64,000 nucleotides of DNA, from positions 62,001-126,000 of the forward strand of contig JAUYQQ010000001.1 in assembly GCA_030697165.1 (NCBI GenBank), written 5' to 3'. Below the pieces are notes generated by a model. The model was not told the DNA's origin. It saw only the letters and a program-made list of their open reading frames with translations, and did no database searches. Of the stretch, positions 26,087 through 49,707 are shown in pieces. The position numbers and the translations under genes were made by a program. The number at the start of each line of letters is the position of its first letter. The first letter of the stretch is position 1. This DNA is from Acidobacteriota bacterium (lineage in GTDB: Bacteria > Acidobacteriota > Vicinamibacteria > Vicinamibacterales > UBA2999).

Positions 26087-28111
26087 TCAGGGTTGGCGGC
26101 TCAAGAGCCGGGGAAGTTTCATCGATTGATACAACGGCTGCCCGGACCAGTCGGCGTCGGCCTGCAAGTGAATCCACAGCGGCAAGACGGCACGCGCGCT
26201 GACCTTTGAGATGGGGCCGAGGCACGACCCGGGACCGCCGACGACCTCCAGGCCGTCGAACTTCAGGTTGGTCTGGTCGCCAAGCCCCTTCCAGAATACG
26301 GGAATAAAGAGGCGGGTTGGAGCACCATTCCCTGAGGATATCGGAAGGTCGAGGGTTGTGGACAGATCGTGGCGCGGGCCGTCGGCCTGGTAGGTGACCC
26401 GCACTGCCGGCGGTGCGGCGCCACAGAGAGCGGGCTCAACCGAGACCGACAGGAGGTCTGATCCCCAGTGCTGCGGCGACACCCCGTAGTCCTGAGGATG
26501 CCAGTCGACGCGGACGAACGAGCCGCGCTCGATGACGGAGGCCACCGCTTCGGTCGGAGCCGCGAGATACTCGCCAACCAGCACCTCGACCGAGTGCGCC
26601 TGAATCACTCGAGCTGCGCCAAGAGCCCCGGCCAGGGCAAAGAGCAGCCCGGCGACGCCCAACGCGCCACGCACGAACGCCGGCTGCGTCCAGGCGCGGC
26701 GCGCGGCTGGCAGGACCTGTGCTATCACCACGAGGGCCGCCCACCATGGCAGGAACCGCAAGTGAAACCAGTGCCGCTCTTCAAACCGGATCGCGGGATA
26801 GCCACCGAGAAACAACACGAAGATCGACAACGCCAGACCCAGGCGTGCGGATTGCGCCCACGCGATGCCGATCGCCACCATGACCAGCAGCGGACCTGCC
26901 GGCGCCAGCAGCGAGGTCACGCGGTTGACAATGGCATAGCCAGCCGAGGCGACAGCGCTTGCCGGGAACGGGGGCACTGGCTGCATCATCTCTGGCACGG
27001 CAAGGCCTACCCGCAAGATCATCAAGACCGACGCATAGGCGCGCACCACCAGGTCAGCGGGAAACGTGGTCGCCATCGTTGTGTAGAGCTGACCCGTGGC
27101 GGCGTCGTACTCGGCCGAGCACTGGGCGGGCACTGGCACATCGAGGATTCGCGAGGCGAAGTCGGCGGCCTTCACCTCAATGAACTCATCGGTGAGCTGG
27201 TCACCGAAGCGGTAGATCGATGACGTCAGCCTCAACTCCTGAGTCAACGGCGTCGTCAACCCCAGCAGCGAGAAGTGATACTGGCATCCTCCAAGCTTCA
27301 ACCCGCCGATCACGGGCGCCGCCACCACTGCGAACGTGAAGAGGAGGACACCGGCAGCCAGACCATTGCGAAGCCAGTTCGCGCGGAGGGCGCCGGGTGG
27401 AAACAGCGCCACCATCAGGGCGCCAAACGGCACCATCAACGCCAGATCGGTGCGAAACCCGTATCCGAAGCCGACTACCGCACCATAAAGGCCGGCCAGC
27501 GCGAGCATCCTCGCACGCGACAGCGGACGAAGCAGCAGTACGGCGAGGATCCAGATCGCTGCGAGGACAAACGGCGCCTTGCTGTAATCGCGCAAGGACA
27601 ACAGCCGCGTCAGGTTGGCCGGAGAAAGCACCAGGAGCAGGGCGAAGACCACGGACACAGCTGGTCCGGCGACCGTGCGGAACAGTCCGAACAGCATGAC
27701 CGCGGACACAGCGCTCATCAACGAGACCAGCACATCGAGCGCCGTCCACGACACGCCGGTCAAGCCCCACACGCCGGCCGAGGCTCCGTACAGGTAGTAC
27801 CAGTTCGCATTCGCAGCCGAGGTGAGCGGCCGTGTCGACGTCGAGTCGGGCAGCAGCGCGCAGTCAAAGGCATCGCGCTTGACCTGCAGGAACTCGGCGA
27901 GCTCCTGAGGGGGTGACGCCGCAATTCCGAATCCGCGGCCGCACGCCATCATCACGGCCGGCTCGAAGTTGGATTGGTAGAAGAACGGCTGAACCCCGGC
28001 CTCACGGAACTGTCGCATTGCCGCCAACGAGACGGCGAACGCTAGGCCGAACAAGGCCAGCACGACAGCCGCCTCGACCACGATTGCCCGCGGGCGTGAG
28101 GTCAGGGCCAT
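26087..28111 (-). CDS. Family-A polytopic membrane protein 1 (LRDYSKAPF type)
   Basis: A 674-residue unassigned protein, first of six paralogues in this window (numbered along the sequence). After TM1 (about 10-30) the loop contains 'FEPAVMMACGRGF' (Cys57) and 'RDAFDC' (Cys84). Further motifs are 'LRDYSKAPF' 173-181, 'GFRTD' 218-222, 'GGCQYHF' (Cys276), 'AQCSAEYD' (Cys331), 'TTFPADL' and 'ERHWFHLRF'. The C-terminal ~150 residues are soluble and end near 'DWSGQPLYQSM'. I infer 9-11 membrane helices and an extracytoplasmic C-domain. No known family is recognised; a GT-C-like or lipid-linked-glycan function is only suggested by the neighbours. ATG 28111 overlaps the previous gene by 10 bp. Confidence 0.8.
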   Translation of the reverse strand: MALTSRPRAIVVEAAVVLALFGLAFAVSLAAMRQFREAGVQPFFYQSNFEPAVMMACGRGFGIAASPPQELAEFLQVKRDAFDCALLPDSTSTRPLTSAANANWYYLYGASAGVWGLTGVSWTALDVLVSLMSAVSAVMLFGLFRTVAGPAVSVVFALLLVLSPANLTRLLSLRDYSKAPFVLAAIWILAVLLLRPLSRARMLALAGLYGAVVGFGYGFRTDLALMVPFGALMVALFPPGALRANWLRNGLAAGVLLFTFAVVAAPVIGGLKLGGCQYHFSLLGLTTPLTQELRLTSSIYRFGDQLTDEFIEVKAADFASRILDVPVPAQCSAEYDAATGQLYTTMATTFPADLVVRAYASVLMILRVGLAVPEMMQPVPPFPASAVASAGYAIVNRVTSLLAPAGPLLVMVAIGIAWAQSARLGLALSIFVLFLGGYPAIRFEERHWFHLRFLPWWAALVVIAQVLPAARRAWTQPAFVRGALGVAGLLFALAGALGAARVIQAHSVEVLVGEYLAAPTEAVASVIERGSFVRVDWHPQDYGVSPQHWGSDLLSVSVEPALCGAAPPAVRVTYQADGPRHDLSTTLDLPISSGNGAPTRLFIPVFWKGLGDQTNLKFDGLEVVGGPGSCLGPISKVSARAVLPLWIHLQADADWSGQPLYQSMKLPRLLSRQP

Positions 28112-30288
28112 GCCGACTCTTGTGCGATTCCCCGCCGGCGCGCCTGCCAGCTGGCAGATGTCAGCGTGCCCGCGGCAGTGTATTGCGGTGGCTGCTGAAA
28201 CCGCTGGTACCATAGGCCCTCACGCCACGCCGGCGCCAGTACCGCGGTCAGCAGGGGCAGCGGCACGGCTGCAACCCGCGCGACCTTGCTGATTCCACGC
28301 AGGCAAGAGATCTGGGCCTTCAGTATCGCGACGCCCTGGAAGATCGTGCCCTCGCGGTGAGAGAAGGCCGGGGTCAGCAACCGCGAGTGCTCCACGCCCT
28401 GCGTCACGGGAACGTCAATGACGCGCGTGTAGGGGCGGTAGAACGCGGACTCCGGTGCGGTGTAGACCAGGCCCACGGCCACGTTCGGCACAGCACAATC
28501 GGCGCTCACATCCACCTGGAGATAGTCGACTGACACGCGGTCATCACCCGGTGGCGACTGCCAGTCAGCCGAGGGTCCGGCCAGACGAAACAGCGCGGCC
28601 GACTGCCAGTGCTCCCGATGCGATTCGGCACGACCCAGCCAGGGCTCCAGCAACCGGCCATCTAGGTCAACGGGGGGCGCAAACGGTTCCAGCACCAAGG
28701 GCACTGCGCTCCACGGCAGCGCCAACGTCTGCTCGAGCGCGCCGACGACCTGACGCTGTTGATACCAGCGCGCGGTCCACAACAGACCTGCCGCGGCGAC
28801 GACCACCGCCAGGGCCACAGCCGCGATCCTGCTTGAACCAGCCAGGACGCGCCGCGCATCCCGCATGGCGACGGCCGGCGAAGTGGCCATGATGCCGCGC
28901 CCCCACTCGATCGACATTCGCGCCGCGATGACGTAGAGGCCGATTGAGACGAGATCAAGGTGGAAGGAATGCCGCCTGGAGAATTGCAGCATCGAGTAGC
29001 CGCAGAAATAGAACACGAGGCCGACGCCAACCGCGCCGGCGCGCGCCGATCGAAGGGCCACCACAACGAGCACCAACCCGGCGAACAGCAGCGCCCAGCC
29101 CTCGACCGCCTTCAACGCCGCGCTTCGAGCAAGTCCAACCGCCCGGAACACCGGCGACTCGTTGAAGGGCACGATTCGGAGATACTCGCCGCGGGACGCG
29201 CCATCAAAGGGATACCGAATCGCCTGTGCTGTCGCACCGAGCGCGCGCACCATTGCGTCAGCCGGAAACCGTCGGGCCATCTCGGCGGCGAACTGGCTCC
29301 CGGCCGCGTCGTAACCGGGCGACAGGAATCTCGGGCCAGCGCCGCCATCGTTGACCCTGCCCGCGTGGGCCGTGATCAGGGAGAAAGCCTGGCTGTCGCT
29401 GTAATGATCGCCGACGTCATACGAAGGAGGTTCCAGTCCCAGGTTTCTCGTGAACTCCCTCATCAAGCCGAGGACGACCACATGCGACGAGTTTGACCCG
29501 TTCGACATCGGCGCCAGGATCGGCGCACCGATTCCGATCGACACCATGATGAACAAGGCTCCGGCCAGTGCCTTGGTGCCGAGGGAACGCCGATCGAATC
29601 CGGGCACCGCCAGCAGGGCCACTGCCAGGATCGCCGGAACGAAGACCAGGACGTCGATCCGAAACCCGATTCCGATCCCCACCAGCAATCCGGCCAGCAC
29701 CGCTGACGTCAACAGCTTCGGCGACGCACGCTCGATGTTTCGCGAGATCATCCAGCCAAGGACCAGCCACAACGCGAAGAAGGCGGGCGCCTTGCCAAAG
29801 TCCCTGAAACTGAGCAGGGCAAGAACTTGATCGGACCAAACCAGGGCCACCGTGCCCAGGGCGGCAAGGGCGGGGCCGGCCACTAAACGGAAGACCCCGT
29901 AGGCCAACCCCATCGTCAGGCCAAACAGGAGCCCTTGGTACGCGTCCAGCGTCTGCCACGACAGTCCACCAATCCGCAGCGCAAGACCCGCGGCGTGAAT
30001 GGCGTAACGTTCCCCCAGGGCAAAGAGTGCGGGGTGGGTGGCGCCTCGCCGATCGACGGCGTCACAGGAAATGCGATCGCTGGTCCGAAACAGGAACTCC
30101 TGCAGTGGGGCCGTCTCGAGCGGTTGCACGAAACCCGCCCCGCAGGCGACCATCACTGCCGGTCCCAGTTCCCAGGAGAACATGGTGACGGCGCCTCTGG
30201 CGGCGAGAAACCGCTGGCCGACCGTGGACGCCCCCGCCACCACCACCAGCACGATCGCGAGGTCGGCCAACCTCCGGCGCCAGGTCAA
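28102..30288 (-). CDS. Family-A polytopic membrane protein 2 (FRDFGKAP variant)
   Basis: A 728-residue paralogue and the most divergent of the run of three. The loop-1 motif is 'WELGPAVMVACGAGF' (Cys49) with 'RISC' (Cys75). The central motif reads 'FRDFGKAP' at 161-168 and 'GFRID' at 208-212. It lacks the GGCQ cysteine ('SNGSNSSHV') and also the cysteine before the 'YDAAG' motif, consistent with loss of one disulfide. 'RHSFHLDL' replaces ERHYFHLE. The soluble C-domain is retained, with 'DCAVPNV' and 'ISCLRGISKVA', and ends in a proline- and serine-rich tail. Its ATG overlaps the upstream paralogue's stop by 4 bp. Function unassigned. Confidence 0.8.
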   Translation of the reverse strand: MTWRRRLADLAIVLVVVAGASTVGQRFLAARGAVTMFSWELGPAVMVACGAGFVQPLETAPLQEFLFRTSDRISCDAVDRRGATHPALFALGERYAIHAAGLALRIGGLSWQTLDAYQGLLFGLTMGLAYGVFRLVAGPALAALGTVALVWSDQVLALLSFRDFGKAPAFFALWLVLGWMISRNIERASPKLLTSAVLAGLLVGIGIGFRIDVLVFVPAILAVALLAVPGFDRRSLGTKALAGALFIMVSIGIGAPILAPMSNGSNSSHVVVLGLMREFTRNLGLEPPSYDVGDHYSDSQAFSLITAHAGRVNDGGAGPRFLSPGYDAAGSQFAAEMARRFPADAMVRALGATAQAIRYPFDGASRGEYLRIVPFNESPVFRAVGLARSAALKAVEGWALLFAGLVLVVVALRSARAGAVGVGLVFYFCGYSMLQFSRRHSFHLDLVSIGLYVIAARMSIEWGRGIMATSPAVAMRDARRVLAGSSRIAAVALAVVVAAAGLLWTARWYQQRQVVGALEQTLALPWSAVPLVLEPFAPPVDLDGRLLEPWLGRAESHREHWQSAALFRLAGPSADWQSPPGDDRVSVDYLQVDVSADCAVPNVAVGLVYTAPESAFYRPYTRVIDVPVTQGVEHSRLLTPAFSHREGTIFQGVAILKAQISCLRGISKVARVAAVPLPLLTAVLAPAWREGLWYQRFQQPPQYTAAGTLTSASWQARRRGIAQESAWP

Positions 30289-32324
30289 TCTCTCACCGTG
30301 CGTTCCCAGTCGGTCAGACTCTGGTACAGCGGCCGTTCTTCCCAGTCAGGCGGCAACGTGGCGCCCAGCACGAGCGGGAACGGCGCGAGGTCGCCGAGAC
30401 GAGAGACCTGGGTGGCACACTCGTCGCGGGTTCCGGAGAACTTCAGCCCGCTGAAGTCGTAGAAGACTGGAATGTATATTCGCGTCATGCCGGCACGGAG
30501 CGGCGGGCGTACCGCAATCGTCCGCGTTAGATCCCTGTTCTCGGCGCCGGCATCGTAGTGAGCCGTGATTGCAGGAGCCACGGGACAAGTGGCCGCATCG
30601 ATGCGAACCTCCAGCAACTGGGGCCAGGCATTCGCCGCGATGCCGGACAACGGCTGGCTTGGTTCTTCGATCACCACCTTCGGCGCAGCCACGTAGGCAC
30701 GCATCAGGTCCCGCGCATTGCGCGCCTGATACCATCGAGCCGCAATCAACAGGCTGCCCAAGAGCGCACATGAGAAGCCGACGACGGCGACGCCTCGCGC
30801 GGCTTGATGCAACTGGGGTCGCCACTGGTCGGGGTGGGCCAGCAGCGCGCGCGCAGACAGGTAGCCGTGGTGGAGCACGACCCCAAAAGCCCACCACCCC
30901 AGGAATTCGAGGTGGAAGTAATGGCGCTCGTCGAACTGGATGGCTGGGTATCCGCCACAGTAGGCGAGAAGGAGGCCAAGGAAGAGACCCAGCCGCACGC
31001 TCCTCGTGGTGACCAGGATCACTGCGGCCAGCGTGAAGTAGGCGCCCCACCGGTGGTTGGGCCGCAGGACGAAGGCTCGCGCGCGATAGAACCCTGCCGA
31101 CCACTCTGCCATCGGTGGGCGGACCTTCCTGATCGGCAGCTCGACAATCTGAGTGATCGAGGCAACGGCCCTGGTCGCAAGGTCGGCGGGAAAGGTGGTC
31201 GCGATATTTTGGAGGTACTGGCCGGTCGCCACGTCGTACTCGTGCGTGCAGTAGCCGATCGGCGCGGTCCCGGGCTGCGTGCGATTCACGAAGCCCTCAG
31301 TGACCTGCCTGATGTATCCATCTGAGTAGGCGTGGCCGAACTCGTAAAGCGCCGGCGACACGCGCAGGTAATCATCAAAGGGCGACTGCAGCCCCAGCAG
31401 CGCGACGTGCCACTGGCAGCCGCCCTTGGTGTAGACCACTGACGACGCGGGCCAACTGACCGCGGCAAACGTGGCCAGGCACAGCGCGGCCGCTGATGCC
31501 TTCAGCGCGAGATGCCGGGTCACACCACCCGGCAGAAATCCGAACAGCGTAACGAAGACCAGCGGCACGTTGATCAGGAGATCGGTGCGAACGCCGTAGC
31601 CCACGCCCAGCACGGCGCCATAGGCAACCGACAGCATCAACAGCAAGTTGCGGCGGACGGGGCGGGTCACCATCACGCCGAGTAGAAAGACCAGCGCCAG
31701 CGTGAACGGCGCCTTTGCGTAGTCGCGCAGGTGCGGCAGATTGGCCAGTTGCATGGGTGAGGTCGCCAACAGACACGCGCACACAACCGCAAGAGCGCGG
31801 CCCATCCCCAGGCGGAACGCGCTATAAGCGAGCGCGGTGACCGCCCCGAAGAGGAGACCGAAGAGGGGGCCCATTCCACTCCACGAGATCCCCAGGATTC
31901 GCCAGGACCAGCCGACGGCCGTCTGCAGATAAATCCAGGCCTCCTGGTAGAGGTACTCCCGGCCCACTTTCAGATCGTCGGGCAAGTCGTGGCAGTCGAA
32001 GGTGTCGCGGCGCAACGACAGGAACTCCTGGAGCGATGGAGGCTGGCGCAACGAGGCGACAAACCCCTTGCCACAGGCCACCATCACGGCAGGTTCGAAA
32101 TAGCTCTGATAGAAGACGGGTTGGCCGCCACGAGCGGTCCACGTGTTCCAGAACTGAGCGGCCCACCATCCGGAGCCGAGCAGCAGCATCACCGCGATCG
32201 CACACTCAGCGGCAAGGCGGCGCCAGTCGACCGGTCGATGCGGGACGCGACTCGTCTCCGAGGCCTTAGCCACCGGCGCTGCGGCCACTGGTTGTGAAGG
32301 AAGGCTCGACACAGCGTCGTGCAA
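30285..32324 (-). CDS. Family-A polytopic membrane protein 3 (family reference copy)
   Basis: A 679-residue protein with a ~35-residue Ala/Pro/Ser-rich cytoplasmic N-tail, TM1 at about 38-56, then 'FEPAVMVACGKGF' (Cys84) and 'RDTFDC' (Cys111). Other motifs are 'LRDYAKAPF' 199-207, 'GVRTD' 244-248, 'GGCQWHV' (Cys303), 'GYCTHEYD' (Cys359), 'TTFPADL' 376-382 and 'ERHYFHLEF' 466-474. A last helix near 511-530 precedes a soluble C-domain (531-679) with Cys580 and Cys636 that ends 'WEERPLYQSL'. It is most similar to paralogue 6 at 47722-49707 ('GGQPVFYQSYFEPAV' versus 'GGKPVFYQSYFEPAV'). It lies 9 bp downstream of a GT2 gene. Function unassigned. Confidence 0.82.
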   Translation of the reverse strand: MHDAVSSLPSQPVAAAPVAKASETSRVPHRPVDWRRLAAECAIAVMLLLGSGWWAAQFWNTWTARGGQPVFYQSYFEPAVMVACGKGFVASLRQPPSLQEFLSLRRDTFDCHDLPDDLKVGREYLYQEAWIYLQTAVGWSWRILGISWSGMGPLFGLLFGAVTALAYSAFRLGMGRALAVVCACLLATSPMQLANLPHLRDYAKAPFTLALVFLLGVMVTRPVRRNLLLMLSVAYGAVLGVGYGVRTDLLINVPLVFVTLFGFLPGGVTRHLALKASAAALCLATFAAVSWPASSVVYTKGGCQWHVALLGLQSPFDDYLRVSPALYEFGHAYSDGYIRQVTEGFVNRTQPGTAPIGYCTHEYDVATGQYLQNIATTFPADLATRAVASITQIVELPIRKVRPPMAEWSAGFYRARAFVLRPNHRWGAYFTLAAVILVTTRSVRLGLFLGLLLAYCGGYPAIQFDERHYFHLEFLGWWAFGVVLHHGYLSARALLAHPDQWRPQLHQAARGVAVVGFSCALLGSLLIAARWYQARNARDLMRAYVAAPKVVIEEPSQPLSGIAANAWPQLLEVRIDAATCPVAPAITAHYDAGAENRDLTRTIAVRPPLRAGMTRIYIPVFYDFSGLKFSGTRDECATQVSRLGDLAPFPLVLGATLPPDWEERPLYQSLTDWERTVRD

Positions 32325-35303: not shown

Positions 35304-37886
35304 TCACTTGATGGGCTCCGCCGCAGGCGCGATCAGGCCCGCGCGCGACACGCTCACCTGGTTCTCGAGCGACATGCCGCGCAGGTTATTGGCCATCACC
35401 ACCTTGTAGTCGCCGTCTTCCGGCACCTTGATCACCACCGAGAACTCGCCGGTCTGCACCACGTGGAGCTGCACGACCCACAGGTCGTTGCTGACCATGC
35501 CGAACGTCACGCCACCCTTCTCAATCGTACCTTGCGCGATGAACGTGGTCCCCTTGGCGAGGCGCCGGGGTTTCATCTCGACAAGATAGAGAAGGGGCCC
35601 ACGACCGCCCACGCCACCCACACCCCTGGCGGTCCAGGCGGGGCCGTCCATCTCAAAGGTCGGTGAAACCTTGAGGATGTCCCCGGGGACAAACGCCGCC
35701 GGCGTGGCGGCCAGGCTCTTCTTGACCTCGCTCCGGGCCAGATCGCTCGGGAAGGTGTAGGTCTCTGCCGGATTCTGGCGTCCTTCGACGCCGCTGATCG
35801 TCGCGTACGGGGTCACGCGCTCCCATCCCGGTCGCAAGCGAAGGTCCAGCAAGGCCGGCAAGGCGGCGACGTCGTTGAGACTGGACATCCGGACGAGGCA
35901 GCTCGCGTGCTCGCCTGGCAACTCGAGGCCCGCGAAGCCAAACGGCTCGTCACCGGCACTGGTCGAGCCCGGATTTCGGAAGTAGGCCGGGAAATAGAGC
36001 GCCACGGGTTCATCGACCAGGGGCACCGCCACGACCGCCGAATGACTGAAGTCGTATCCCTTGGTCATCGAGTGGTAACGCTGGGTGACGCGCAGGTTCA
36101 TGGCGTCGCAGTTCGCCCCGCCGAGGTAAGCCGCCACGTAGGCGGCATGCACACCGCCATCGGTGGGCAACCCGCGCACGAGAGCCGGGCTCTCGAATCG
36201 GAGGTCGCCGTTCGGAAGCGAGACCGGTGTCAAGTCAAGGGTGGTACGCGGCGCGGCGTGGACGGTGCCGAGAAACGCGCGCACGTGCCCATCCTGGTAC
36301 CGACGCAGAAGCCACAGCGGGCCAATGATGACGCCGGCCAGAACGGCCCACATCGCCAGCGCCATGCCGGCAGCGCGCGGCCAGCCGGCAGCGGGCGTTG
36401 CGGCCGTGAGCCACTCGGACTGCCATTTGACAGGCAACCCTGAAGGGTTGCCTCCACTCACTACGCGCGTGATGACCGCGCCGGCCGTGCGTCCCGCCAA
36501 CATCAGGCAGAAGCCGAGGGCCCACCACCCGACGAACTCGAGGTGGAAGAAGTGCCGCTCCTGGAATTGCAGTGCCGGATAACCCGAGAGATACAGGACG
36601 AAGACCCCGGCGAAGAATCCAAGGCGAAGGCTCCACACGCTGAGAGCCGTCAGCGTGATGACCAGCGGCCATGGCCACAAGCCGCCAATCAGCCGCAGGG
36701 CGTCGGCCTTCAGCAACAGCAACCGCTGCGCGGCCGCCGGCAGGAACTCTGGCACCACCAGTGCCGCCGTGGTGGTCGAGTGCGGAAGTTCCGTGATTCG
36801 CACGGCCGATGCGTAAACGCGCGTGAGCAGATCGGCCGGAAAGGTGGTGGCCACCTCGCGAAGCAACTGGGTTGCGGTGCGGTCGTAGTCGGGACCGTAC
36901 ATCGGCAGGAAGCGGTGCTGGCCGAGCCGGCGATCCGCGTAGTTGTCGATCATCGCAAGCGCCAGCTCGTCGCGATACTCGAAACCTATTTCGTAGAGAC
37001 GGCTGTTGTCGACTCCCAGGTCAGCGCTAAACGCCGGCGTGAGACCGAGCAGCACGAGATGCTGCGTTGAACTACCGCCACCCGTCTGGTAGACCGACGA
37101 CATGGGCCACATCGCGACGTAAACGGCGGCCAGGTAGAGGGCAATCGCGCCGGCCCGGAGGCCAAGGCGCTCGCGCGGCGCCAGCGGCAGGAACAGCGCG
37201 AACACGCCCACAAACGCGGGAATGGCGACGAGCAGGTCGTTGCGAAAGCCGATCCCCACACCTGTCAGCAGGCCCGCGACTAGCGAGAGGCCCATCGTGC
37301 GCCGGACCGTCACTTCGCTGCGAACCAGGCGAATAGCCAACAGGACCAGCGCCAGGACAAAGGGCGCCTTCGCGTAGTCGCGCAGGTGCGGAATGTTATG
37401 GAGATGCAGCGTCGAGAACATCAGCGCCGTGGCGCCGAGGGCCGATAGCGTCCGCCCCATGCCTTGCCGGAAGATCGCGAAGGCCAGCACGATGGTGAGG
37501 CCATACAGGAACCCGTAAAGCGGGGTCAGCGCACTCCAGGCGACCTGGCCGTGCAGGCGCCAGGTCGCGCCGACGGTCATTATCAGGTAACGAAACGCGC
37601 GCTGCATCGAGGTCAGCGGGCGCGGGGCCACCGTCTGGAGGTCGGCGCACGACACCTCGTCCGCCTTCAAATCCAGAAAAGCAGTCAGCGCGGGGGGCGC
37701 CGTATCCCCCGGGTTTACGTACCCGAACCCGCACGCCTCCATCACCGCAGGACCGAACTCCTGCTGGTAGAACCAGGGCTTGCCACCGGCGGCGACAAAC
37801 TGCGGCACGTACCACGACGCCACCGCGAACGCCGCGACGAACAAGGCAGCCGCGACGGCGGTCTCAATCCCCCAGCGACGACTCAA
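35304..37886 (-). CDS. Family-A polytopic membrane protein 4 with C-terminal sandwich module
   Basis: An 860-residue paralogue. Loop 1 has 'EFGPAVMEACGFGY' (Cys52) and 'EVSC' (Cys80). Also present are 'LRDYAKAPF' 168-176, 'GFRND' 213-217 and 'ERHFFHLEF'. The GGCQ and CxxEYD cysteines are both absent ('GGGSSTQH', 'MYGPDYD'). After the family-A soluble domain there is an extra linker and a ~98-residue module (763-860; 'EKGGVTFGMVSNDLW', 'TGEFSVVI', 'YKVVMANN'), also found in the proteins at 45188 and 60839. A 20-bp palindrome is inserted in frame near residue 480 (GGNPSGLP). The start is uncertain: TTG 37886 lies just after the upstream TAG, and the longer frame overlies the dehydratase gene. 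Confidence 0.8.
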   Translation of the reverse strand: MSRRWGIETAVAAALFVAAFAVASWYVPQFVAAGGKPWFYQQEFGPAVMEACGFGYVNPGDTAPPALTAFLDLKADEVSCADLQTVAPRPLTSMQRAFRYLIMTVGATWRLHGQVAWSALTPLYGFLYGLTIVLAFAIFRQGMGRTLSALGATALMFSTLHLHNIPHLRDYAKAPFVLALVLLAIRLVRSEVTVRRTMGLSLVAGLLTGVGIGFRNDLLVAIPAFVGVFALFLPLAPRERLGLRAGAIALYLAAVYVAMWPMSSVYQTGGGSSTQHLVLLGLTPAFSADLGVDNSRLYEIGFEYRDELALAMIDNYADRRLGQHRFLPMYGPDYDRTATQLLREVATTFPADLLTRVYASAVRITELPHSTTTAALVVPEFLPAAAQRLLLLKADALRLIGGLWPWPLVITLTALSVWSLRLGFFAGVFVLYLSGYPALQFQERHFFHLEFVGWWALGFCLMLAGRTAGAVITRVVSGGNPSGLPVKWQSEWLTAATPAAGWPRAAGMALAMWAVLAGVIIGPLWLLRRYQDGHVRAFLGTVHAAPRTTLDLTPVSLPNGDLRFESPALVRGLPTDGGVHAAYVAAYLGGANCDAMNLRVTQRYHSMTKGYDFSHSAVVAVPLVDEPVALYFPAYFRNPGSTSAGDEPFGFAGLELPGEHASCLVRMSSLNDVAALPALLDLRLRPGWERVTPYATISGVEGRQNPAETYTFPSDLARSEVKKSLAATPAAFVPGDILKVSPTFEMDGPAWTARGVGGVGGRGPLLYLVEMKPRRLAKGTTFIAQGTIEKGGVTFGMVSNDLWVVQLHVVQTGEFSVVIKVPEDGDYKVVMANNLRGMSLENQVSVSRAGLIAPAAEPIK
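36433..36452. repeat. Perfect 20-bp palindrome inserted in coding sequence
   Basis: GGCAACCC and GGGTTGCC form a perfect 8-bp stem around a TGAA loop. The element is in frame in family-A protein 4, encoding GGNPSGLP on the minus strand, in the loop between two predicted membrane helices. The five paralogues lack this peptide at the corresponding place. It is a REP-like element distinct from the one at 33961-34043. Confidence 0.75.
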
Positions 37887-37887
37887 G

Positions 37888-39641: not shown

Positions 39642-41506
39642 GCGAGATAGAGATCGTACCACTCCTGAAACACCACGAACGCCAGCACCTTGTTGACGTC
39701 CGTGTAGTCGGCGCCCGGCTGATAGAGGCGATCGACAAGGGCGCCGATACGCGTCGCGTCAAAGAAGTCGTGCCGGCCAAGACGAGACGGGCTGAGCGTA
39801 TCGCGCACGTAGGACTGCAGGTCGCCCAGCATCCACTGCGTGACGGGCATCAGGAAGCCTTCCTTCGGCCGGTCCACCATCTCCGCCGGGAAGTATCGAC
39901 GGGCCGCCTGCTTCAGGAGGTACTTCGTGTCGCCCATCTTGATCTTCACGCGGCCTGGTAGGCGGGCCGCGAAGGTCACGACGTCGGTGTCGAGGTAAGC
40001 GCTGCGGACTTCGAGCGAGTGGGCCATCGACAGGCGGTCGCCGTAGGTCAGCACCTGGTCTGGGAAGATCGTCTTGAACTCGGCTTCGAGGATGCGGTTG
40101 AGCGGATCGGTTGCGGTCAGGCGCGCGAAGGTCTCTTTTAGGTAGTCAGCCGTGCTGCTGGCGGCAAGTTCGCGCTGCAGGTCCGGGTGGTAGAGGCTGC
40201 GCTTCTCGTCCTCACCAAACACCAACAGCTTGGCACGCCATTCCCAATCGAGCGCCGCCGTGTCACCACTCCCGAGGAGTCCCTGCAAGTACTCCGGCCG
40301 GCTCTCGAACGGCCGGATCAAGTCGGCATTGCCGGTGCGCTGGTATTCGGGAAACTGCGCCATCGGCTGCGCCAGGCGATGCGACAGGTAGCTGCCGAAG
40401 ATCTCGTCGGCACCATCGCCCGACAGGGCGACCTTCACGTGACGAGCAATCAACTGCGACAGGAAGTAGCTGGAGACGACGCCGGCGAACGGCTCGTCGA
40501 AGCAGCCCAGGATCTTGCGCAAGTTGTCCGGGTAGTTGCTGAACTCGATGGTCTCTTCGTGATGCTCGGTGCCGTATTTCTCGGCTACCCAGCGCGCCCA
40601 CCGGCGGTCCTGCTCCTTACCGGGCGTCGTCGACTCGTTCGCGTAGGTCAGCGTGAAAGTCTTGATGCGCCCGGTCGCCTCGGCGGCCATCGCGGTGGAC
40701 AGGCTCGAGTCGAGTCCGCCGCTCAGGAAGAACCCAATCGGTACATCCGAGAGCAGGCGGCGCTTCACGCCCTGACCGAGCAGGCGAATCAGCTCCTCGG
40801 TCAGCGCGTCCTCTGGCTGGCTGTCGAGATCGGGATCGACGGTGAAATCCACGTCCCAGTAGCAGCTGATGACCGGCTGCTCGCCGGGGCGGAACGTCAG
40901 CCGGTGAGCCGGCGGCAGCATGTAGACGCCCCTGAAGATGGTCAGCGGATGCGGGACGTGCTTGAGGCTGATGAAGTGGTGCATCGCCTCCAGATTGATC
41001 GTCCGCGTGAAGCCGGGGACGGTGAGCAGCGCCTTGAGCTCCGAGGCGAAATACAGCACGTCGCCGCTATGCCAGTAGTAAAGCGGCTTCTTGCCCATCC
41101 GGTCGCGCCCCAGCAGGCCGGTCTGCGTCTTCTCGTCCCACACCGCGATCGCGAACATCCCGTCGATGTGCTCGGGCAGCCCGGCGCCGTGCTCCTCGTA
41201 AAGATGCGGCAGCACCTCGGTGTCGCAGGTGGTGTGCAGGTGATGACCTGACTGTAGCAACCGCGGGCGAAGCTGCGGGTAGTTGTAGAGTTCGCCGTTC
41301 TCACAGGCCCAGATCGAGCCGTCCTCGTTCGACATCGGCTGCCGGCCGTGTTCGACGTCGAGAATAGCCAGGCGCCGCGCGCCCAACGCGAATCGCTCGC
41401 CGTGGACCACGTGGCTGTCATCCGGACCGCGGTGGCGCAGGGTCGCGAGCATCGTCTCGGTGGTGGCGCGATCGCCGCGCCCGAACATTCCGCAAATGCC
41501 ACACAT
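39638..41506 (-). CDS. asnB: Asparagine synthetase-type amidotransferase (second AsnB)
   Basis: A 622-residue protein starting MCGICGMFG (Cys2 nucleophile) with 'RHRGPDD', 'CENGELYNYPQLRPRL', the P-loop 'SGGLDSSLSTAMAAE' near residue 260 and 'VALSGDGADEIFGSY'. Both catalytic halves look intact. It may amidate a carboxyl group on the glycan or a precursor and need not make free asparagine. Immediately upstream of the ATG the DNA is a GATC-rich minisatellite with no purine-rich ribosome site. Initiation therefore probably depends on readthrough from the membrane gene ending 23 bp upstream, inside the same repeat. Confidence 0.92.
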   Translation of the reverse strand: MCGICGMFGRGDRATTETMLATLRHRGPDDSHVVHGERFALGARRLAILDVEHGRQPMSNEDGSIWACENGELYNYPQLRPRLLQSGHHLHTTCDTEVLPHLYEEHGAGLPEHIDGMFAIAVWDEKTQTGLLGRDRMGKKPLYYWHSGDVLYFASELKALLTVPGFTRTINLEAMHHFISLKHVPHPLTIFRGVYMLPPAHRLTFRPGEQPVISCYWDVDFTVDPDLDSQPEDALTEELIRLLGQGVKRRLLSDVPIGFFLSGGLDSSLSTAMAAEATGRIKTFTLTYANESTTPGKEQDRRWARWVAEKYGTEHHEETIEFSNYPDNLRKILGCFDEPFAGVVSSYFLSQLIARHVKVALSGDGADEIFGSYLSHRLAQPMAQFPEYQRTGNADLIRPFESRPEYLQGLLGSGDTAALDWEWRAKLLVFGEDEKRSLYHPDLQRELAASSTADYLKETFARLTATDPLNRILEAEFKTIFPDQVLTYGDRLSMAHSLEVRSAYLDTDVVTFAARLPGRVKIKMGDTKYLLKQAARRYFPAEMVDRPKEGFLMPVTQWMLGDLQSYVRDTLSPSRLGRHDFFDATRIGALVDRLYQPGADYTDVNKVLAFVVFQEWYDLYLA

Positions 41507-41580
41507 ATCAGGGATCGGGGATCAGGGATCAGGGATCGGGGATCGGGGGCCGAGGATCGGGGGCCGGGGATCGGGGGTCG
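41507..41580. repeat. GATC-rich minisatellite (GGGATCa/gGGGATC units)
   Basis: A run of imperfect 7-13 bp units built on GGGATC (GGGATCGG, GGGATCA, CGAGGATCGGGGGC). It spans the whole interval between the asnB start codon and the 3' end of the HTTM-like gene. The stop codon of the latter (41529-41531) lies inside the repeat, and the last ~16 residues of that protein (DPRSPAPDPRPPIPDP) are repeat-encoded. It contains no obvious promoter or ribosome site. Confidence 0.85.
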
Positions 41581-43043
41581 GCAAGGGGCGCATAGCTGCC
41601 GGGCCGCACGCCTTCGCGCACGGGCGACACGCTTGGGATGGCCCACGCGTTGGTTTCGTCGCTGAGCACCCGATCGACGACGGTGCCAGCGTCGAGGTCG
41701 ACGACGAACTCCGTGGCTGGCACGAACTCGAAGCGATCCGGGCGCGTCGCCACGCTGACCCATTCGAAGACGAGGCGAGCGCCTGTGGCGCGCGGAATGG
41801 TGCGGGCATAGCGCAACAACCGCTCCACAAACAGCGCGCGGTTGCTGGGGTAGTACTTCAGCGTGGTGAACACGCTGGTCAGCGCGATGCACTCCGCCAC
41901 CTGCGAGAAGCGCCAGGGGCCTGTCATCCGGTAGTCCGTCACCAGTCGCCGGTCGCCACCGTCGGCTGGCGCCTCCCAGATACGCACGAAGAAGTTAACG
42001 ACGTCGGCGGTGAACACCCGCCACAGGATCAGGCCAAAGGCGTTGGCGTAGCCATCGAGGGCCCGCTGGACGGGCGGCGGAAGGGACCGGTGTTTCAACT
42101 GGTTGTAGAACATGCCGGTCCGCACGAACGGCAGCAACGCGAGGTAGCCCCAGCACAATGCGGACAGCGTCGACTGCGCGAGGGCGGGCAGTGGCTGGCC
42201 GCTGACGGGCGCTGCCGATGGCAGGACGGCCAGCAACCAGGCGTTGACGATGGTGCCTTCGCCGACGAACAGCAGGCAGCACACCATCACCATTTCGGCC
42301 AGGAACCCGAGACGTATCTGGGTTGCGATGAAGACAAAGCTGGCGAGCATGACGAGGCCGCCCAGCATACGGGTGGCGGGAATCAGCATCAGGATGCCGC
42401 AGGCGACTTCGGTGCCCCACGCCATTTCGTTGAAGAACCGGAACAGCGGATGGGCCGGGGGCCACCTGGACCAGAAGCGCCACCAGTAACCCCATTCCGG
42501 GTTGGCCATACCCAGTTCCATGCCGCGCTGCTGCCGGTATCCGGCGAAGAGCTTGTAGAGGCCGGCCGACAGCATGATGGCGGCGAAATCGACTTGCAGC
42601 GTCAGCAGCGCCAAGCCTCGCAGGCCAGGCGCGTGGCGCGTCGTGAGTTCGAGCAGCAAGACCGCGGCGCCAAGCCACAGCGAAATGAAGCCGGGCGCGC
42701 CCATTCCTCGCGACACGCTCTTCCAGCGCATCCGGTTGAAGAAGTAGTAGCAAAAGACCAGGTTGACCAGGGCCGAGGGAAGGACCGCACGCCCCGAGAT
42801 GAGACCGAAGGCCGCGAGCACCCACAAGGCCAGCACCACGGGAATCACGACGGGGTTCTGGATGGCGTCGGCCAGTGCGCTCGATTGCGCATACCCACCC
42901 CACTTCTCGCTTCGGAAATAACGCCGGGCATGGGGCAACGCCGCGCCCAGCGTCAGGAGCATCAGGACGCCATAGGCGACACGAATCGCCGCCTGCAATT
43001 CGAGGCTGAGAGTCGGCGCGAGAAGAGAATCTGAACCGAGCAC
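41529..43043 (-). CDS. HTTM-like polytopic membrane protein
   Basis: A 504-residue integral membrane protein with about 8-9 helices in the first ~360 residues and a soluble C-terminal ~140 residues. The segment 'IMLSAGLYKLFAGYRQQRG' followed by 'NPEWGYWWRFW' resembles HTTM (vitamin-K gamma-carboxylase-related) and DoxX-like membrane proteins. No catalytic assignment is possible. The C-domain ('FTTLKYYPSNRALFVERL', 'RATGARLVFEWVSV') may be cytoplasmic. The extreme C-terminus is a repeat-encoded Pro/Asp-rich tail that is unlikely to be functional. It starts 10 bp downstream of the formyltransferase gene and probably shares its transcript. Confidence 0.75.
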   Translation of the reverse strand: MLGSDSLLAPTLSLELQAAIRVAYGVLMLLTLGAALPHARRYFRSEKWGGYAQSSALADAIQNPVVIPVVLALWVLAAFGLISGRAVLPSALVNLVFCYYFFNRMRWKSVSRGMGAPGFISLWLGAAVLLLELTTRHAPGLRGLALLTLQVDFAAIMLSAGLYKLFAGYRQQRGMELGMANPEWGYWWRFWSRWPPAHPLFRFFNEMAWGTEVACGILMLIPATRMLGGLVMLASFVFIATQIRLGFLAEMVMVCCLLFVGEGTIVNAWLLAVLPSAAPVSGQPLPALAQSTLSALCWGYLALLPFVRTGMFYNQLKHRSLPPPVQRALDGYANAFGLILWRVFTADVVNFFVRIWEAPADGGDRRLVTDYRMTGPWRFSQVAECIALTSVFTTLKYYPSNRALFVERLLRYARTIPRATGARLVFEWVSVATRPDRFEFVPATEFVVDLDAGTVVDRVLSDETNAWAIPSVSPVREGVRPGSYAPLADPRSPAPDPRPPIPDP

Positions 43044-43977: not shown

Positions 43978-43980
43978 CCG

Positions 43981-45187: not shown

Positions 45188-47686
45188 TCATGGCTCCCCG
45201 TCCAAGACCGCGATTCTCGAGATCGTGAAGCGGTTCCGGAGTGAAGTGTTGCTCAGGTAATTGGCAATCACCAGTTGATACCGGCCCGCGCGCGGCGCCT
45301 TGATGACAGCCTTGAATGCCCCCGGTGTGCCGATGGCCATTCGGGCCGCCCAACCGGCACTATCGGTTAGACCAATCGCCAGGCCGCCTCGAACCAACTC
45401 GCCCTCGACCAGCACGATATCCGCTTCATCGAACGGCCAGTCCGCCCAAGCCGCCAGATACGACCCGGCCGCATCGGCGACCCCCGCGACGTGCACGCTC
45501 GCGTCCGGCGCGACCCGCGCGATGCTTGCGGCATACGCCAACGGGGCCGCAAACCGCTCGACGGTGGCTCCGGCGCGCGACAAGCGCTCGCTGACCACGG
45601 TGCGGGAAACCGCCGGCCCCCAAAAAGTCTCTGGCTCCCGGCCCGCGCTCGTCGCATCGCGCTCCCAGCCTCGCAGGCTCTGGCGCAGCGGCCGCCCGCG
45701 CCAGTCGGGCGGCAACACCACTGGCAGCAACAGCGGGAGCTGATCGGCCAGGGCGAATCGGCGCAACCCCGTGACGCAGTGTTGCTCGGCTTCGGCCATC
45801 TCGATCCCTCCGAACTTCAGCGCGTCAGCACCCGGACCGGTTGGGCTGGAACGGTAGATCGGCACAAAGACTCGCGCGACACCTGCGCCGGCAGCCGGCA
45901 CTTCGATGTCGTAGGTGCGCGTGAAATCCAGATCAGGATTCTCCGTATCGTAAGTAAAGCTCATCGCAGTATGGCTGACGGGGCACCTTTCAGCAGACAC
46001 CTCGGCCACGATCACATCCGAGCGCATCGATCGCCTGGGACCCTCTGGCAAGGCGTCCTTCACCAGGCGTACGACCCCGGGCCCGGCCGACGTGACCGCC
46101 CCTACGAGCGGCTCGGTAGGTGCCGCGAGATAGCTGTCCATCAGTGCCGTCGCCGCTCGTTGTTGATAGGCGCGCAGGACCTCAAGAGGCAGTGTCACGA
46201 TCGCCACGACGCTAAGCGCAAACCCGAGCGGGCGCCAGATGACGCCGCTCCCGGGCACCGCATCACTATCTTCAGCCGGAACGCCGCGCCAACTGGCGAC
46301 AATCCTCGAACACGCGGCTGAGATCAGGAAGGCGAGAATCCAGACTGACAATAATTCCAGGTGGAACACATGCCGCAGTTGAAACTGAATCGCCGGATAG
46401 GCACCCAGTAACGCGACCACCCCGAACAGGGAGGCCGCCAGGCGAACGCTTCGCACGCTCAGCGCCAGAACCGCGGCCGCAAACAGCGCCGTGCCCAAGC
46501 CGGCGAACATGATGCGCACACGGCCCACCAGGCCGATCACGCGCGTCATGAACTCGGGGAGGATTCCCTGAGACAGGGAGTGCATCCCGCTGAACGGCAG
46601 GTCCAGCACCTGGATGATCGCCGCCCAGCCGCGTAGGAGCGCGTCGGCTGGAAACGTGCCGAGGAGCGTTGTGTAGTACGCGCCGCTGGCCTCGGCATAG
46701 CCCGGGACGCCAACCGATACCTGGGCGAAAGAGCCGAGCCTCCGTCCCGCGAACGCATCAATCGTCGTCGCTACGTAACTGTCGCTGTAGAAGTACATCG
46801 GCTCGTACGGACCGGGGATGATGTTCAGCGCACGGTCCCATTCGTGGGCGTAGCCCAGGAGCGCCCAGTGCCACAAGTTACTCCCCGACGACTGCGAGGT
46901 CAGAATCGGAAACGCGACCGCGACAAAACCCAGCAGGCATGCGGCCGCGGCGCCGATACGAATCCGCCAGGTGCCGACAAGACGGCCAGGCAGGCAGGCA
47001 CAGGCAACGCCCACGAGAAGCACCAGGTTGACGACCACGTCGGTGCGAATGCCAAACCCAAAGCCCAGCAAAGCGCCGCCGGTAGCGCACCAACCCACCA
47101 CTACCCTCGGCGGGCTGGGGCGCGTGATCAGCACGCCGGCGACGAGCAGATTGGCGAGGAAGAACGGCGCCTTCGCGTAGTCGCGCAGGTCGTAGAGGTT
47201 CGCGAGCTGGATAGGCGACAATAGCAACACCACCGCCACCGCGGTTGCGGCCACTCGTCCCATGGCGAGGCGGCCGATGAGATACGTGAGGCCGACCGAG
47301 GCCCCAAACATCGCGCCCTGCAGGTAGTCGATACCGGCCCACGTCAGGCCTGTCAACGCCCATGTGCTGACCACCAGTTGCAGCAAGTAGCGCGATGCTC
47401 GCTGCATCCCATCAAGTTCATCGGCCGGCTGATCCGCTGGAATCTCGCTGCACGCCAGCACCTCACGGCGCTGCTCGATGAACTCGACCAGCGGCCGATG
47501 TTCCGGCCGTGCGCGGGTCATTGCGTTCGCGGTTACGTCAGGCGTTTGAAGGCCGTGGCCGCAAATGCTCATGGCGGCGGCGCCGAACACACGCCGGCTG
47601 AAGTCCGGCATGTCGGCGACGAGGTGGGATTGACGCGTGATGCGGACGTAGCTGGAGCCAATCGCCAGGCCGGCGGCCACCAGCAA
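45188..47686 (-). CDS. Family-A polytopic membrane protein 5 with C-terminal sandwich module
   Basis: An 832-residue paralogue. Loop 1 is 'RRVFGAAAMSICGHGL' (Cys42), a diverged PAVMxACGxGF, with 'EVLAC' (Cys79). Other motifs are 'LRDYAKAPF' 167-175, 'GIRTD' 212-216 and 'LRHVFHLEL'. It lacks the second Cys pair ('SGSNLWHW', 'VPGYAEAS'). The family-A soluble domain ends 'DWRGRPLRQSL' and is followed by a ~130-residue extension whose last 92 residues ('VRGGLAIGLTDSAGW', 'YQLVIANYLSN') are the shared sandwich module. The TTG at 47686 would truncate TM1. An in-frame CTG at 47725, overlapping the upstream TGA, would give MSRPLRSDVVLCLLL and a complete helix, and may be the true start. Confidence 0.8.
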   Translation of the reverse strand: MLVAAGLAIGSSYVRITRQSHLVADMPDFSRRVFGAAAMSICGHGLQTPDVTANAMTRARPEHRPLVEFIEQRREVLACSEIPADQPADELDGMQRASRYLLQLVVSTWALTGLTWAGIDYLQGAMFGASVGLTYLIGRLAMGRVAATAVAVVLLLSPIQLANLYDLRDYAKAPFFLANLLVAGVLITRPSPPRVVVGWCATGGALLGFGFGIRTDVVVNLVLLVGVACACLPGRLVGTWRIRIGAAAACLLGFVAVAFPILTSQSSGSNLWHWALLGYAHEWDRALNIIPGPYEPMYFYSDSYVATTIDAFAGRRLGSFAQVSVGVPGYAEASGAYYTTLLGTFPADALLRGWAAIIQVLDLPFSGMHSLSQGILPEFMTRVIGLVGRVRIMFAGLGTALFAAAVLALSVRSVRLAASLFGVVALLGAYPAIQFQLRHVFHLELLSVWILAFLISAACSRIVASWRGVPAEDSDAVPGSGVIWRPLGFALSVVAIVTLPLEVLRAYQQRAATALMDSYLAAPTEPLVGAVTSAGPGVVRLVKDALPEGPRRSMRSDVIVAEVSAERCPVSHTAMSFTYDTENPDLDFTRTYDIEVPAAGAGVARVFVPIYRSSPTGPGADALKFGGIEMAEAEQHCVTGLRRFALADQLPLLLPVVLPPDWRGRPLRQSLRGWERDATSAGREPETFWGPAVSRTVVSERLSRAGATVERFAAPLAYAASIARVAPDASVHVAGVADAAGSYLAAWADWPFDEADIVLVEGELVRGGLAIGLTDSAGWAARMAIGTPGAFKAVIKAPRAGRYQLVIANYLSNTSLRNRFTISRIAVLDGEP

Positions 47687-47721
47687 CAGGCACAGTACTA
47701 CGTCACTTCGGAGCGGCCTGC

Positions 47722-49707
47722 TCAGGGCCGCCCGTCACTTTCCCAATCCGTCAGCTGCTGGTACAGCGGATGGCTTGCCCAATCGGATGCCAGCGTGACG
47801 CCGAGCAGCACCGGGAATCGTTTCAAATCAGTGACGCGCGAGACGCCGGTCAAGCAACCGGGCCGGGGATCGACCAAGTCGAGACCCAGATAGGTCTCGA
47901 ACACCGGCATGAAGAGCCGGGTCGTACCGGGCGTGCCCGACGACGACGCCGCCTTCACCGTATGCGTAAAATCAGCGCCGGCGGCCTTCTCGTCGTACCG
48001 AAACCTGACGGCCGGCGCTCCGCCACACGCGGCCTCGTTTAAATCGACTTGAAGCAGCTGCGGCCACTCCGTCTGGTCGAACTTCGGCAGGGGTTGCCCG
48101 GGCGACGTCACCGGTTCTTTCGGCGCCGCGAGGTAGGCATCGAGCAGTTGGCGAACCTGACGGGCCTGATACCATCGAGCGCCCCCGAGCGCCGCCACCA
48201 TGATCAGGGCGGCAATGGCAGCGTAAACACCAGATCGAGCCGCGGCCCTCGCGAGCGCAGGCACGTCCGGCGGCGCGTGCCTGAACTCTCTGGCGACACG
48301 CAGCGCTTGGTGCAGCACGAAACCGATGGCCCACCAGCCGATGAACTCGAGGTGGAAATAGTGGCGCGGCTGGAACTGGATAGCCGGATACCCGCCGAAG
48401 TAGACGAGGGAGAGCATCAGGACGAGTGCCAGCCGGATGCTGGCCATTCCCGTCAGCACGATGGCCCCCGCCGTGAACCACAACCCCCACCGGTGATCCG
48501 GCTCCAGCAACCAGGCGCGCACCGTATACACCGGCGTCAGCCAGTTCTGCAGCGGGCCGACAAAGGTGTGAAACGGCAACTCGACGATTTGCAGCACCGA
48601 GGCGTAGGACCGAACGAGGATGTCGGCGGGGAACCTCAACAGGATGGCCTGCAGGTAACGGCCGCTCTGAACGTCATATTCGTGAGAACAGAACACCATC
48701 GGCTGCGCGCCCTGGACGGTCCGGTATTGATAGCCATTGACGGCGCGGTCGACGTAACCGTCGGCATACGCATAGCCGAAGTCGTACGGCGCCGGCCGGA
48801 CTCTCAAGTAGCTATCGAAGGGCGACTGCAGCCCCAGCAAGGTCACGTGCCATTGGCATCCACCCGACCGGTAGACGGTGGACGTGACCGGCCAGCTCAC
48901 CACGGCAAAGGTCGCGACGAACAAGACTGCCGAAGCGGCCTTCAATCGCAGGTTGCGGGTCAGCCCGCCGTCGAGGAAGCACAGTATGACGACAAGCATG
49001 AAAGGCAGATTAATGAGCAGGTCCGTGCGGAATCCATATCCGACACCGCTTACCACCCCAGCTACTGTGGCGAGCGCCAGCACCGTCCAGTTGCGCACGG
49101 GCAACGTCACGAGCAAGCCGGCGAGCAGCACCAAGGCAAGCGTGAACGGCGCCTTGGCGTAGTCGCGCAGGTGCGGCAGGTTGACCAGATGTAGAGACGA
49201 CAGCGTCAGAAACACGGCGCCCACAATCGCCAGGGCGCGGCCCATGCCCAGCCTGAAGATTCCATAGGCGAGCGCAATGACGGCGCCGAACAACGCTCCG
49301 AACATCGGCCCCATGCCGGACCACGAGATGCCCAGCAGGCGCCAACCGTAGCCGACGGACACCAACAGGTAGGTCCAGGCCCCTTGGTAGAGGTAGCGCG
49401 TTCCGAGCGGGTGATCGGCTGGAATGTCGGCGCAGTCGAACGTGTCGCGGCGCTGGAAGAGGAAGTCTTCGAGCGACTTGGGCTGCGTTTGCGTCGAGAT
49501 CACGAAACCTCTTCCGCACGCAATCATCACCGCTGGTTCGAAATAGCTCTGGTAGAAGACGGGCTTTCCGCCCTCAGCAATCCAGGCGTTCCAGAAGCGG
49601 TCGGCCCATACTGATGAGCCGGCGAACAGGGTGGCGGCGATCAGCAGGTCGACGGCAATTCGTCGCGGAACGACCGGGAAGCCCTGGCGGACGAGCGGCG
49701 ATGTCAC
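47722..49707 (-). CDS. Family-A polytopic membrane protein 6
   Basis: A 661-residue paralogue, closest to number 3. It has 'FEPAVMIACGRGF' (Cys64), 'RDTFDC' (Cys92), 'LRDYAKAPF' 180-188, 'GFRTD' 225-229, 'GGCQWHV' (Cys284), 'VFCSHEYD' (Cys340), 'PRHYFHLEF' and the C-terminal 'DWASHPLYQQL'. All four loop cysteines are present. There is no additional module after the soluble domain. The open frame extends 118 codons upstream over the methyltransferase gene; I chose GTG 49707, whose GTGA overlaps that gene's stop. Its neighbours (methyltransferase and SGNH upstream, paralogue 5 downstream) suggest a modification subcluster. Function unassigned. Confidence 0.82.
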   Translation of the reverse strand: MTSPLVRQGFPVVPRRIAVDLLIAATLFAGSSVWADRFWNAWIAEGGKPVFYQSYFEPAVMIACGRGFVISTQTQPKSLEDFLFQRRDTFDCADIPADHPLGTRYLYQGAWTYLLVSVGYGWRLLGISWSGMGPMFGALFGAVIALAYGIFRLGMGRALAIVGAVFLTLSSLHLVNLPHLRDYAKAPFTLALVLLAGLLVTLPVRNWTVLALATVAGVVSGVGYGFRTDLLINLPFMLVVILCFLDGGLTRNLRLKAASAVLFVATFAVVSWPVTSTVYRSGGCQWHVTLLGLQSPFDSYLRVRPAPYDFGYAYADGYVDRAVNGYQYRTVQGAQPMVFCSHEYDVQSGRYLQAILLRFPADILVRSYASVLQIVELPFHTFVGPLQNWLTPVYTVRAWLLEPDHRWGLWFTAGAIVLTGMASIRLALVLMLSLVYFGGYPAIQFQPRHYFHLEFIGWWAIGFVLHQALRVAREFRHAPPDVPALARAAARSGVYAAIAALIMVAALGGARWYQARQVRQLLDAYLAAPKEPVTSPGQPLPKFDQTEWPQLLQVDLNEAACGGAPAVRFRYDEKAAGADFTHTVKAASSSGTPGTTRLFMPVFETYLGLDLVDPRPGCLTGVSRVTDLKRFPVLLGVTLASDWASHPLYQQLTDWESDGRP

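Follow-up and report, generated by a model that had tools for sequence, protein, structure and literature searches.

Integral membrane glycosyltransferases of the GT-C fold take part in protein glycosylation and in the synthesis of surface glycans, arabinan among them. How they work is usually explained by a single aspartate of the juxtamembrane helix 1 (JM1), as set out in excerpts of three papers (PMC12041525; PMC12041299; PMC7801869). In those excerpts an essential catalytic Asp at the tip of JM1 is ascribed to all GT-CA enzymes (PMC12041299), it is so placed in PimE, ALG6, ArnT, and PglB (PMC12041525), and the DD motif of the TMTC proteins is aligned with it (PMC7801869). Here, we describe a group of membrane proteins, named family A, encoded six times in a stretch of 64,000 nucleotides from an Acidobacteriota bacterium (assembly GCA_030697165.1, contig JAUYQQ010000001.1, positions 62,001 to 126,000, G000:C1:62001-126000 in our numbering), which as a whole is called the window. 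Like the GT-CA enzymes (STT3/AglB/PglB, PMT, ArnT, PimE, AftB), family A has the GT-C fold in its predicted membrane core and helices in the first external loop (EL1), but unlike them it has no fixed Asp at the JM1 tip, and it carries motifs of its own (RDYxKAP, GxRxD, FPAD, and RHxFH). On balance, these are probably new periplasm-facing GT-C-fold glycosyltransferases that pass a sugar from a lipid-linked donor to an exported polysaccharide and whose active site has been rearranged. A further system, compared by description only, is GT136 (ORF12 of Citrobacter youngae O1), a GT-C enzyme with a C-terminal carbohydrate-binding module (CBM) from a polysaccharide cluster with an ABC transporter; by the part of the description drawn on here, it is set apart by a candidate Asp, D31, after the first transmembrane (TM) helix, unlike family A (PMC11127046).

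Family A is a real, uncatalogued sequence family. Its six homologous open reading frames (ORFs) in the window all lie on the minus strand (Table 1; copies are named by their first position, and residues are numbered as in the 30285 copy), and the 28102 copy as a query finds the other five with E-values of 1.1e-36 to 3.8e-58. Identity among them is about 30% over most of their length and reaches 54% in the pair 30285/47722, while a seventh copy (E 1.2e-90 with the 28102 copy) is encoded some 8.7 kb after the last position of the window, at G000:C1:134657-136702. A reading made earlier from the sequence alone (hereafter the sequence-only reading) had proposed a common polytopic family without a name, and no Pfam or NCBIfam model does reach its cut-off for the six copies, the matches below it being TMEM260-like (0.036), excisionase-like (0.053), ALG3 (0.16), an enolpyruvyl transferase model (0.16), SLATT (0.24), and LA3751 (0.28); nor was a description of the family found in the literature searched, which comprised the Creative Commons-licensed PMC papers. 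The motifs listed in that reading follow each other in the order it gave, with the relaxed forms [PA]A[VA]MxxCGxG, [LF]RD[YF]xKAP, FPAD, and RHxFHL in 6/6 copies, the literal strings being present in four (PAVMxACGxGF), four (LRDYAKAPF), six (GxRxD), three (TTFPADL), and four (RHxFHLE). Its C-terminal ending DW..RPLYQSL held only in part, being clear in 30285, changed in 26087, 45188, and 47722, and weak in 28102 and 35304. The copies were correctly seen as three adjacent, two adjacent, and one isolated, and the end set for the 47722 copy at 49707 agrees with a start downstream of the ORF 5' end: judging from where its homology begins, the true start likely lies at about 49.67-49.71 kb, and the first 120-130 residues or so of that ORF probably precede it. 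The Cys pair pointed out earlier is also real, since C84 and C111 go together: of 101 family rows (these rows being related), 46 have the two and 47 have neither, a co-occurrence that fits a putative disulphide in the first periplasmic loop.

The membrane core of family A has, by prediction, the GT-C fold. An AlphaFold2 model of the 30285 copy, built from a 61-row alignment, reached a predicted local distance difference test score (pLDDT) of 91.2 and a predicted template-modelling score (pTM) of 0.91, and a Foldseek search of the PDB with it placed ArnT and EmbC first (E 3e-3), followed by ALG3, oligosaccharyltransferase (OST), and AglB. In the VIA structure comparison, where rows were judged by title and the chains of OST, translocon, and glycosylphosphatidylinositol (GPI) transamidase complexes were taken to be STT3 and PIGU, rows 1-49 are GT-C-fold proteins and row 50 falls to Z 6.6; among them are an OST chain (Z 20.3, 318 residues, 5.2 A), AglB (Z 20.0, 301 residues, 4.1 A), Pmt4 (Z 18.6), PglB (Z 18.2), ArnT (Z 17.6), and EmbB (Z 9.6). 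The first C-terminal domain, common to the copies (residues ~549-657), is hardly covered by these rows. A kinship with GT-C enzymes had been suspected from the letters and is clear from the structure model, the suggested comparison with PMT, ArnT, and AglB pointing to a common fold; as for a confident match of all six copies to one characterised family, it is found at the level of the fold and not as a sequence family. The profile of family A aligns over residues 136-292 with that of 23 proteins of PMT_2 (PF13231, an ArnT-like Pfam family) from related genomes, with an hhalign probability of 88.7 and an E-value of 2.5e-6 for one comparison, against 0.2 and 0.34 for the reversed profile. Unlike PMT_2 proteins, 21 family A members scanned with hmmscan stay under the PMT_2 cut-off of 26.1 bits: the six window copies have no match, and the 15 others score at most 22.1 bits, three of the 21 giving sub-threshold matches of 20.8-22.1 bits (3.8e-4, 4.7e-4, and 1.9e-4). 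The seventh copy behaved in a conflicting way, with 30.1 bits in a profile search of genomes and none in hmmscan, and it is not used as support. When the family profile was run against PDB sequences, its hits stayed at chance level, with a best E of 0.037 (G-protein-coupled receptors, a designed protein, and transporters).

The charged residues that the sequence-only reading had called invariant are indeed so, or nearly so, across the family. Among 102 aligned rows, D335, D381, and R467 occur in all, R200 and D201 in 101, and K204, R246, and H468 in 100; G311 is likewise present in 102 rows and D248 in 98, with three E. As in PMT_2, there is an acid in the second external loop (EL2), D201 lying within one residue of the PMT_2 Asp when counted by eye from a common S-P region in which hhalign puts a gap, and in the alignment with PMT_2, R246 and R467/H468 fall on or close to basic residues (the K at the end of TM5 and RY).

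A fixed acid at JM1 is, to judge from the sequences, absent from family A. In the model, JM1 comprises residues 77-83, and across columns 66-84 of the 61-row alignment the share of rows with an acid never exceeds 34% in any one column. We also counted acids in unaligned sequence, in 100 rows, backwards from the GxG anchor, with the best ORF at each of 30 PMT_2 loci as a control. The most acidic single position before the anchor is D or E in 28/100 family A rows; in the control, position -14 is acidic in 23/30, and an acid occurs somewhere in the motif columns in 28/30, the other two being read as a shifted motif. The 14 residues preceding the anchor are free of acids in 26 of the 100 family rows, and a stretch of 19 is so in eight, which belong to about six lineages of the tree. 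Windows of the same lengths in the rest of the loop are acid-free in 17% and 9% of cases; because acid-free windows are no rarer at JM1 than elsewhere in the loop, acids are not enriched there. Given that the conserved Asp at the JM1 tip is lacking by this measure, family A is filed as having a GT-C fold and not as a standard GT-CA enzyme. The combination of this fold with strictly invariant residues and no fixed JM1 acid makes the assumption of a single Asp testable.

At the C terminus of two window copies, 35304 and 45188, there is an additional module. A model of the 45188 tail (mean pLDDT 86, pTM 0.72 for the whole tail) has CBM86 as its first VIA match for the module (Z 11.3, 120 residues, 2.8 A). 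Against a CBM, the matches at Z 9 to 10 mix CBMs with other jelly rolls, Vip3, Cry, and reelin included, so the label denotes a predicted likeness only; in Foldseek, most rows for this tail model were cupins or other beta proteins, with low TM-scores. Such a module could hold the acceptor glycan, and CBMs are known in the GT-C enzymes EmbA-C, AftD, and GT136, as far as described in the excerpt of PMC11127046. A hidden Markov model made from seven such tails also matches the protein at 60839-63907 (1.1e-29 in a search of a small set). That protein, of 1022 aa, has no Pfam or NCBIfam match and aligns to PMT_2 with an hhalign probability of 96.3; a profile comparison of its family with family A was not significant (E 0.096, reversed 0.2), though both look GT-C-like.

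The spread of family A is patchy. Bacterial and archaeal genomes yielded 86 matching stretches in a single scan; the best 80, from 75 loci, were retained, with phyla taken from the record titles, and these 80 come mostly from Candidatus Hydrogenedentota and Acidobacteriota, with Pseudomonadota (Bradyrhizobium, Aurantimonas, Acetobacteraceae, and Hyphomicrobiales), Nitrospirota, Gemmatimonadota, and Myxococcota as minor hosts. Matches were present in 12/193 genomes of the window's class (three of them over 60-77 positions only, E 3.8e-6 to 5.1e-4), in four of 60 relatives including the window's own genome, and in 5/396 genomes of the phylum sample, one at 7.7e-4 only. When ten genomes were searched singly, with pieces in split frames counted, six Hydrogenedentota had 5-11 matches each on several contigs, two Acidobacteria had 8 and 10, and Aurantimonas and Bradyrhizobium had one each. 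A quick tree of 102 rows places most of the window copies on old branches of their own, nearer to copies in other genomes than to one another; the one sister pair is 30285 and 47722. One match, annotated "hypothetical protein" and covering 47% of the query, is on a plasmid of Rhizobium sp. Q54. Annotation gains a new sequence family, and the eight genomes with 5-11 matches each offer hints about cell-surface chemistry in uncultured Hydrogenedentota and Acidobacteriota. Among the relatives, the member at L034:5896-8865 has a fused N-terminal GT2 domain (PF00535, 1e-23, residues 5-131); two loci of Candidatus Hydrogenedens (L046 and L060) carry family A genes in tandem, each encoding about 1165-1175 aa, with tetratricopeptide repeat (TPR) models matching one scanned tail; and in the draft assemblies G433:C134 and G434:C530 family A matches run across adjacent frames, owing to sequencing errors or decaying copies.

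The donor, acceptor, orientation, and catalytic residues of family A we infer as follows. A polyprenyl-phosphate sugar of the outer leaflet would bind in the GT-C cavity, with its phosphate near R246 and R467/H468, as the alignment with PMT_2 suggests, and the sugar would then be passed to an acceptor, probably the exported polysaccharide, which the CBM-like module may hold in two copies; the sugar-modifying genes, GT2 donors, and Wzm nearby provide the context for this. Since the base of JM1 has no fixed counterpart, deprotonation of the acceptor would most likely be carried out from elsewhere, by an acid off the fixed JM1 position, namely D201 in EL2, D335, or D381; should the reaction be retaining, that acid would serve another step. 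A bolder reading, less likely than not, is that the JM1 Asp has been lost and its task either moved to one of these three residues or dropped, in a retaining or base-free reaction; if this is true, the GT-C scaffold supports a second mode of catalysis, with members in six phyla.

Several observations weigh against glycosyltransferases of the kind proposed. The Foldseek E-values are weak, none being under 1e-3, and the TM-scores are low; GtrA (PF04138) has no match at E <= 0.001 in the window's genome, in a search whose control was positive in 7/14 genomes; and among 91 ORFs neighbouring family A outside the acidobacterial clusters, about 72 of them from Hydrogenedentota, no glycan gene family is common to more than three members and no Pfam family of any kind to more than four. 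Moreover, an acid lies no more than 12 residues ahead of the anchor in 68/100 rows, most densely at -10 to -12 (11, 28, and 17 rows), near the JM1 tip, so a shifting JM1 acid is possible in most members. Family A would then consist of ordinary GT-CA enzymes in which this acid drifts by about one helical turn between subfamilies and is thereby hidden from the columns, as the D or E in column 74 (39/102 rows) and the E in column 77 (12/102) might also suggest. We regard this as rather unlikely, given the acid-free rows of about six lineages, the acid-free windows no rarer at JM1 than in the rest of the loop, the adjoining anchors that hold their place (G85 in 97 and G87 in 98 of 102 rows), the fixed distance of the acid in PMT_2, and the six window copies themselves, three of which have E and three G at the FxPAVM position. 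The want of a fixed JM1 Asp would also suit a catalytically dead GT-C-fold protein acting as a scaffold, an acceptor-presenting subunit, or a lipid handler, in the manner of PIGU in GPI transamidase; the transamidase chains taken as PIGU are among the VIA matches (Z 15.2, 14.3, and 13.5), and PIGU is named as a protein of the same fold with another function in an excerpt of PMC12041525. It is nevertheless improbable, as four invariant or near-invariant acids, together with R200, K204, R246, R467, H468, and Q533, persist over six phyla and resemble an active site.

At least for Hydrogenedentota, another candidate function is that of TMTC-type protein O-glycosyltransferases, for TMTC1-4 combine a GT-C domain with TPRs behind it, the tails of 6/6 long Hydrogenedentota members scanned match TPR models, and the family is multiplied over several contigs in the six genomes of this phylum mentioned above. 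That they are of this type seems distinctly unlikely, because TMTCs keep the EL1 DD motif (PMC7801869, in the part drawn on), which family A lacks, and no TPR was found in the six window copies or in nine other members scanned. The sequence-only reading had put forward still another view, that repeated duplication beside GtrB-type donors left each paralogue with its own lipid-linked sugar and donor synthase. GtrB/ArnC-type synthases are present in the window cluster, and some gene order is kept: at locus L031 the copy L031_5176, 56-59% identical to the 35304 copy, has nearly the same neighbours, with AsnB2-WbqC1-GDH before it and M20-AntibNAT-GT2b after it, and a 26087-like copy stands before Epimerase_2 in L066 (relative L066_2689) and L054 as it does in the window. 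However, there are two clear donor synthases (52078 and 59799), with up to a few more possible, for seven copies, and modules and copies are also mixed, the copy after GT2b being 26087-like in L031 and 30285-like in the window. A lock between paralogue and neighbour module was tried on the 25 relatives with recognisable neighbours (some rows being pieces of one gene) and rejected, the concordance being 10/25 versus a permutation mean of 7.7 (p 0.19). The co-occurrence with GtrB-type genes that the sequence-only reading proposed to look for was not seen elsewhere, Glycos_transf_2 being found in at most one of the 91 neighbours, and unlike GtrA/GtrB/Gtr* systems the family shows neither this linkage there nor a GtrA gene in its genome. 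A division of labour by sugar with dedicated donors is therefore doubtful; copy-donor pairing may occur locally, but in the sample taken it does not characterise the family.

Table 1. Positions of the family A copies, of segments discussed in the text, and of other features of the window
Feature	Position	Strand	Remarks
Family A copy 1, GT-C-fold family	26087-28213	-	708 aa; ORF 5' end overlaps next ORF, true start probably downstream
Family A copy 2	28102-30288	-	728 aa; clusters with the seventh copy and G008/G013 copies (quick tree)
Family A copy 3	30285-32324	-	679 aa; modelled, predicted GT-C fold
Family A copy 4	35304-37985	-	893 aa; additional C-terminal module
Family A copy 5	45188-47686	-	832 aa; additional C-terminal module
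Family A copy 6	47722-50061	-	779 aa ORF; homology begins at about residue 130
Loop and JM1 helix, residues 66-84 of copy 3	32073-32129	-	Site of the GT-CA catalytic Asp; family without a fixed acid
LRDYAKAPF, residues 199-207 (EL2) of copy 3	31704-31730	-	R200, D201, K204, and P206 near-invariant
D335 to D381 (FPAD) stretch of copy 3	31182-31322	-	Both Asp invariant in 102/102 rows
CBM-like module of copy 4, residues 744-889	35319-35756	-	Predicted fold, from the homologous copy 5 module
CBM-like module of copy 5, residues 695-831	45194-45604	-	Modelled; best match CBM86
GT-C-like protein, not family A	60839-63907	-	JM1-type DDSEANIAYDLA motif and shared CBM-like C-terminal module
ABC-2 (Wzm-like) exporter membrane subunit	2828-3649	-	Pfam
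GT2, ArnC/PgfS type, probable polyprenyl-phosphate-sugar synthase	52078-53028	-	Two C-terminal TM helices
GT2, ArnC/PgfS type, probable polyprenyl-phosphate-sugar synthase	59799-60809	-	C-terminal TM helices

The surroundings of the copies form a large glycan cluster, in which Pfam recognises asparagine-synthase-type amidotransferases, heparinase II/III-like proteins, WbqC, DegT aminotransferases, a formyltransferase, GT4-methyltransferase fusions, a GDP-mannose-dehydratase-like protein, an Epimerase_2 protein, an ABC-2 exporter subunit, and several GT2s; no tRNA was found in a scan of the window. The GT2s at 52078 and 59799 match the PgfS and ArnC models with E-values of 1.9e-46 to 3.1e-81, below the equivalog cut-offs. 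Two others, the GT2 at 11017 (AglJ, 3.4e-25) and that at L009:12624 (ArnC, 9.3e-18), both without TM helices in a hydropathy scan, thereby match models of polyprenyl- or dolichyl-phosphate sugar synthases and may be further donor synthases. The asparagine-synthase-type amidotransferases of the glycan region number four (window 893-2812 and 39638-41506, L008:11936-13852, and L009:10702-12756 on the minus strand), which suggests several amidated sugars. Other polytopic proteins of the same cluster have no Pfam or NCBIfam match either, and lie at 5715-9353 (1212 aa) and 41529-43043 (504 aa) on the minus strand of the window, at L009:5207-7471 (754 aa), and at L009:14551-16470 on the minus strand (639 aa). 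On the opposite strand inside the cluster, the plus-strand protein at 13393-14913 of the window is GT87-like (PF09594, 29 bits, cut-off 25), GT87 being itself a GT-C-type family. Two neighbouring proteins that join a GT4 glycosyltransferase to a methyltransferase are encoded at 14920-17586 and 17511-20240 on the minus strand.

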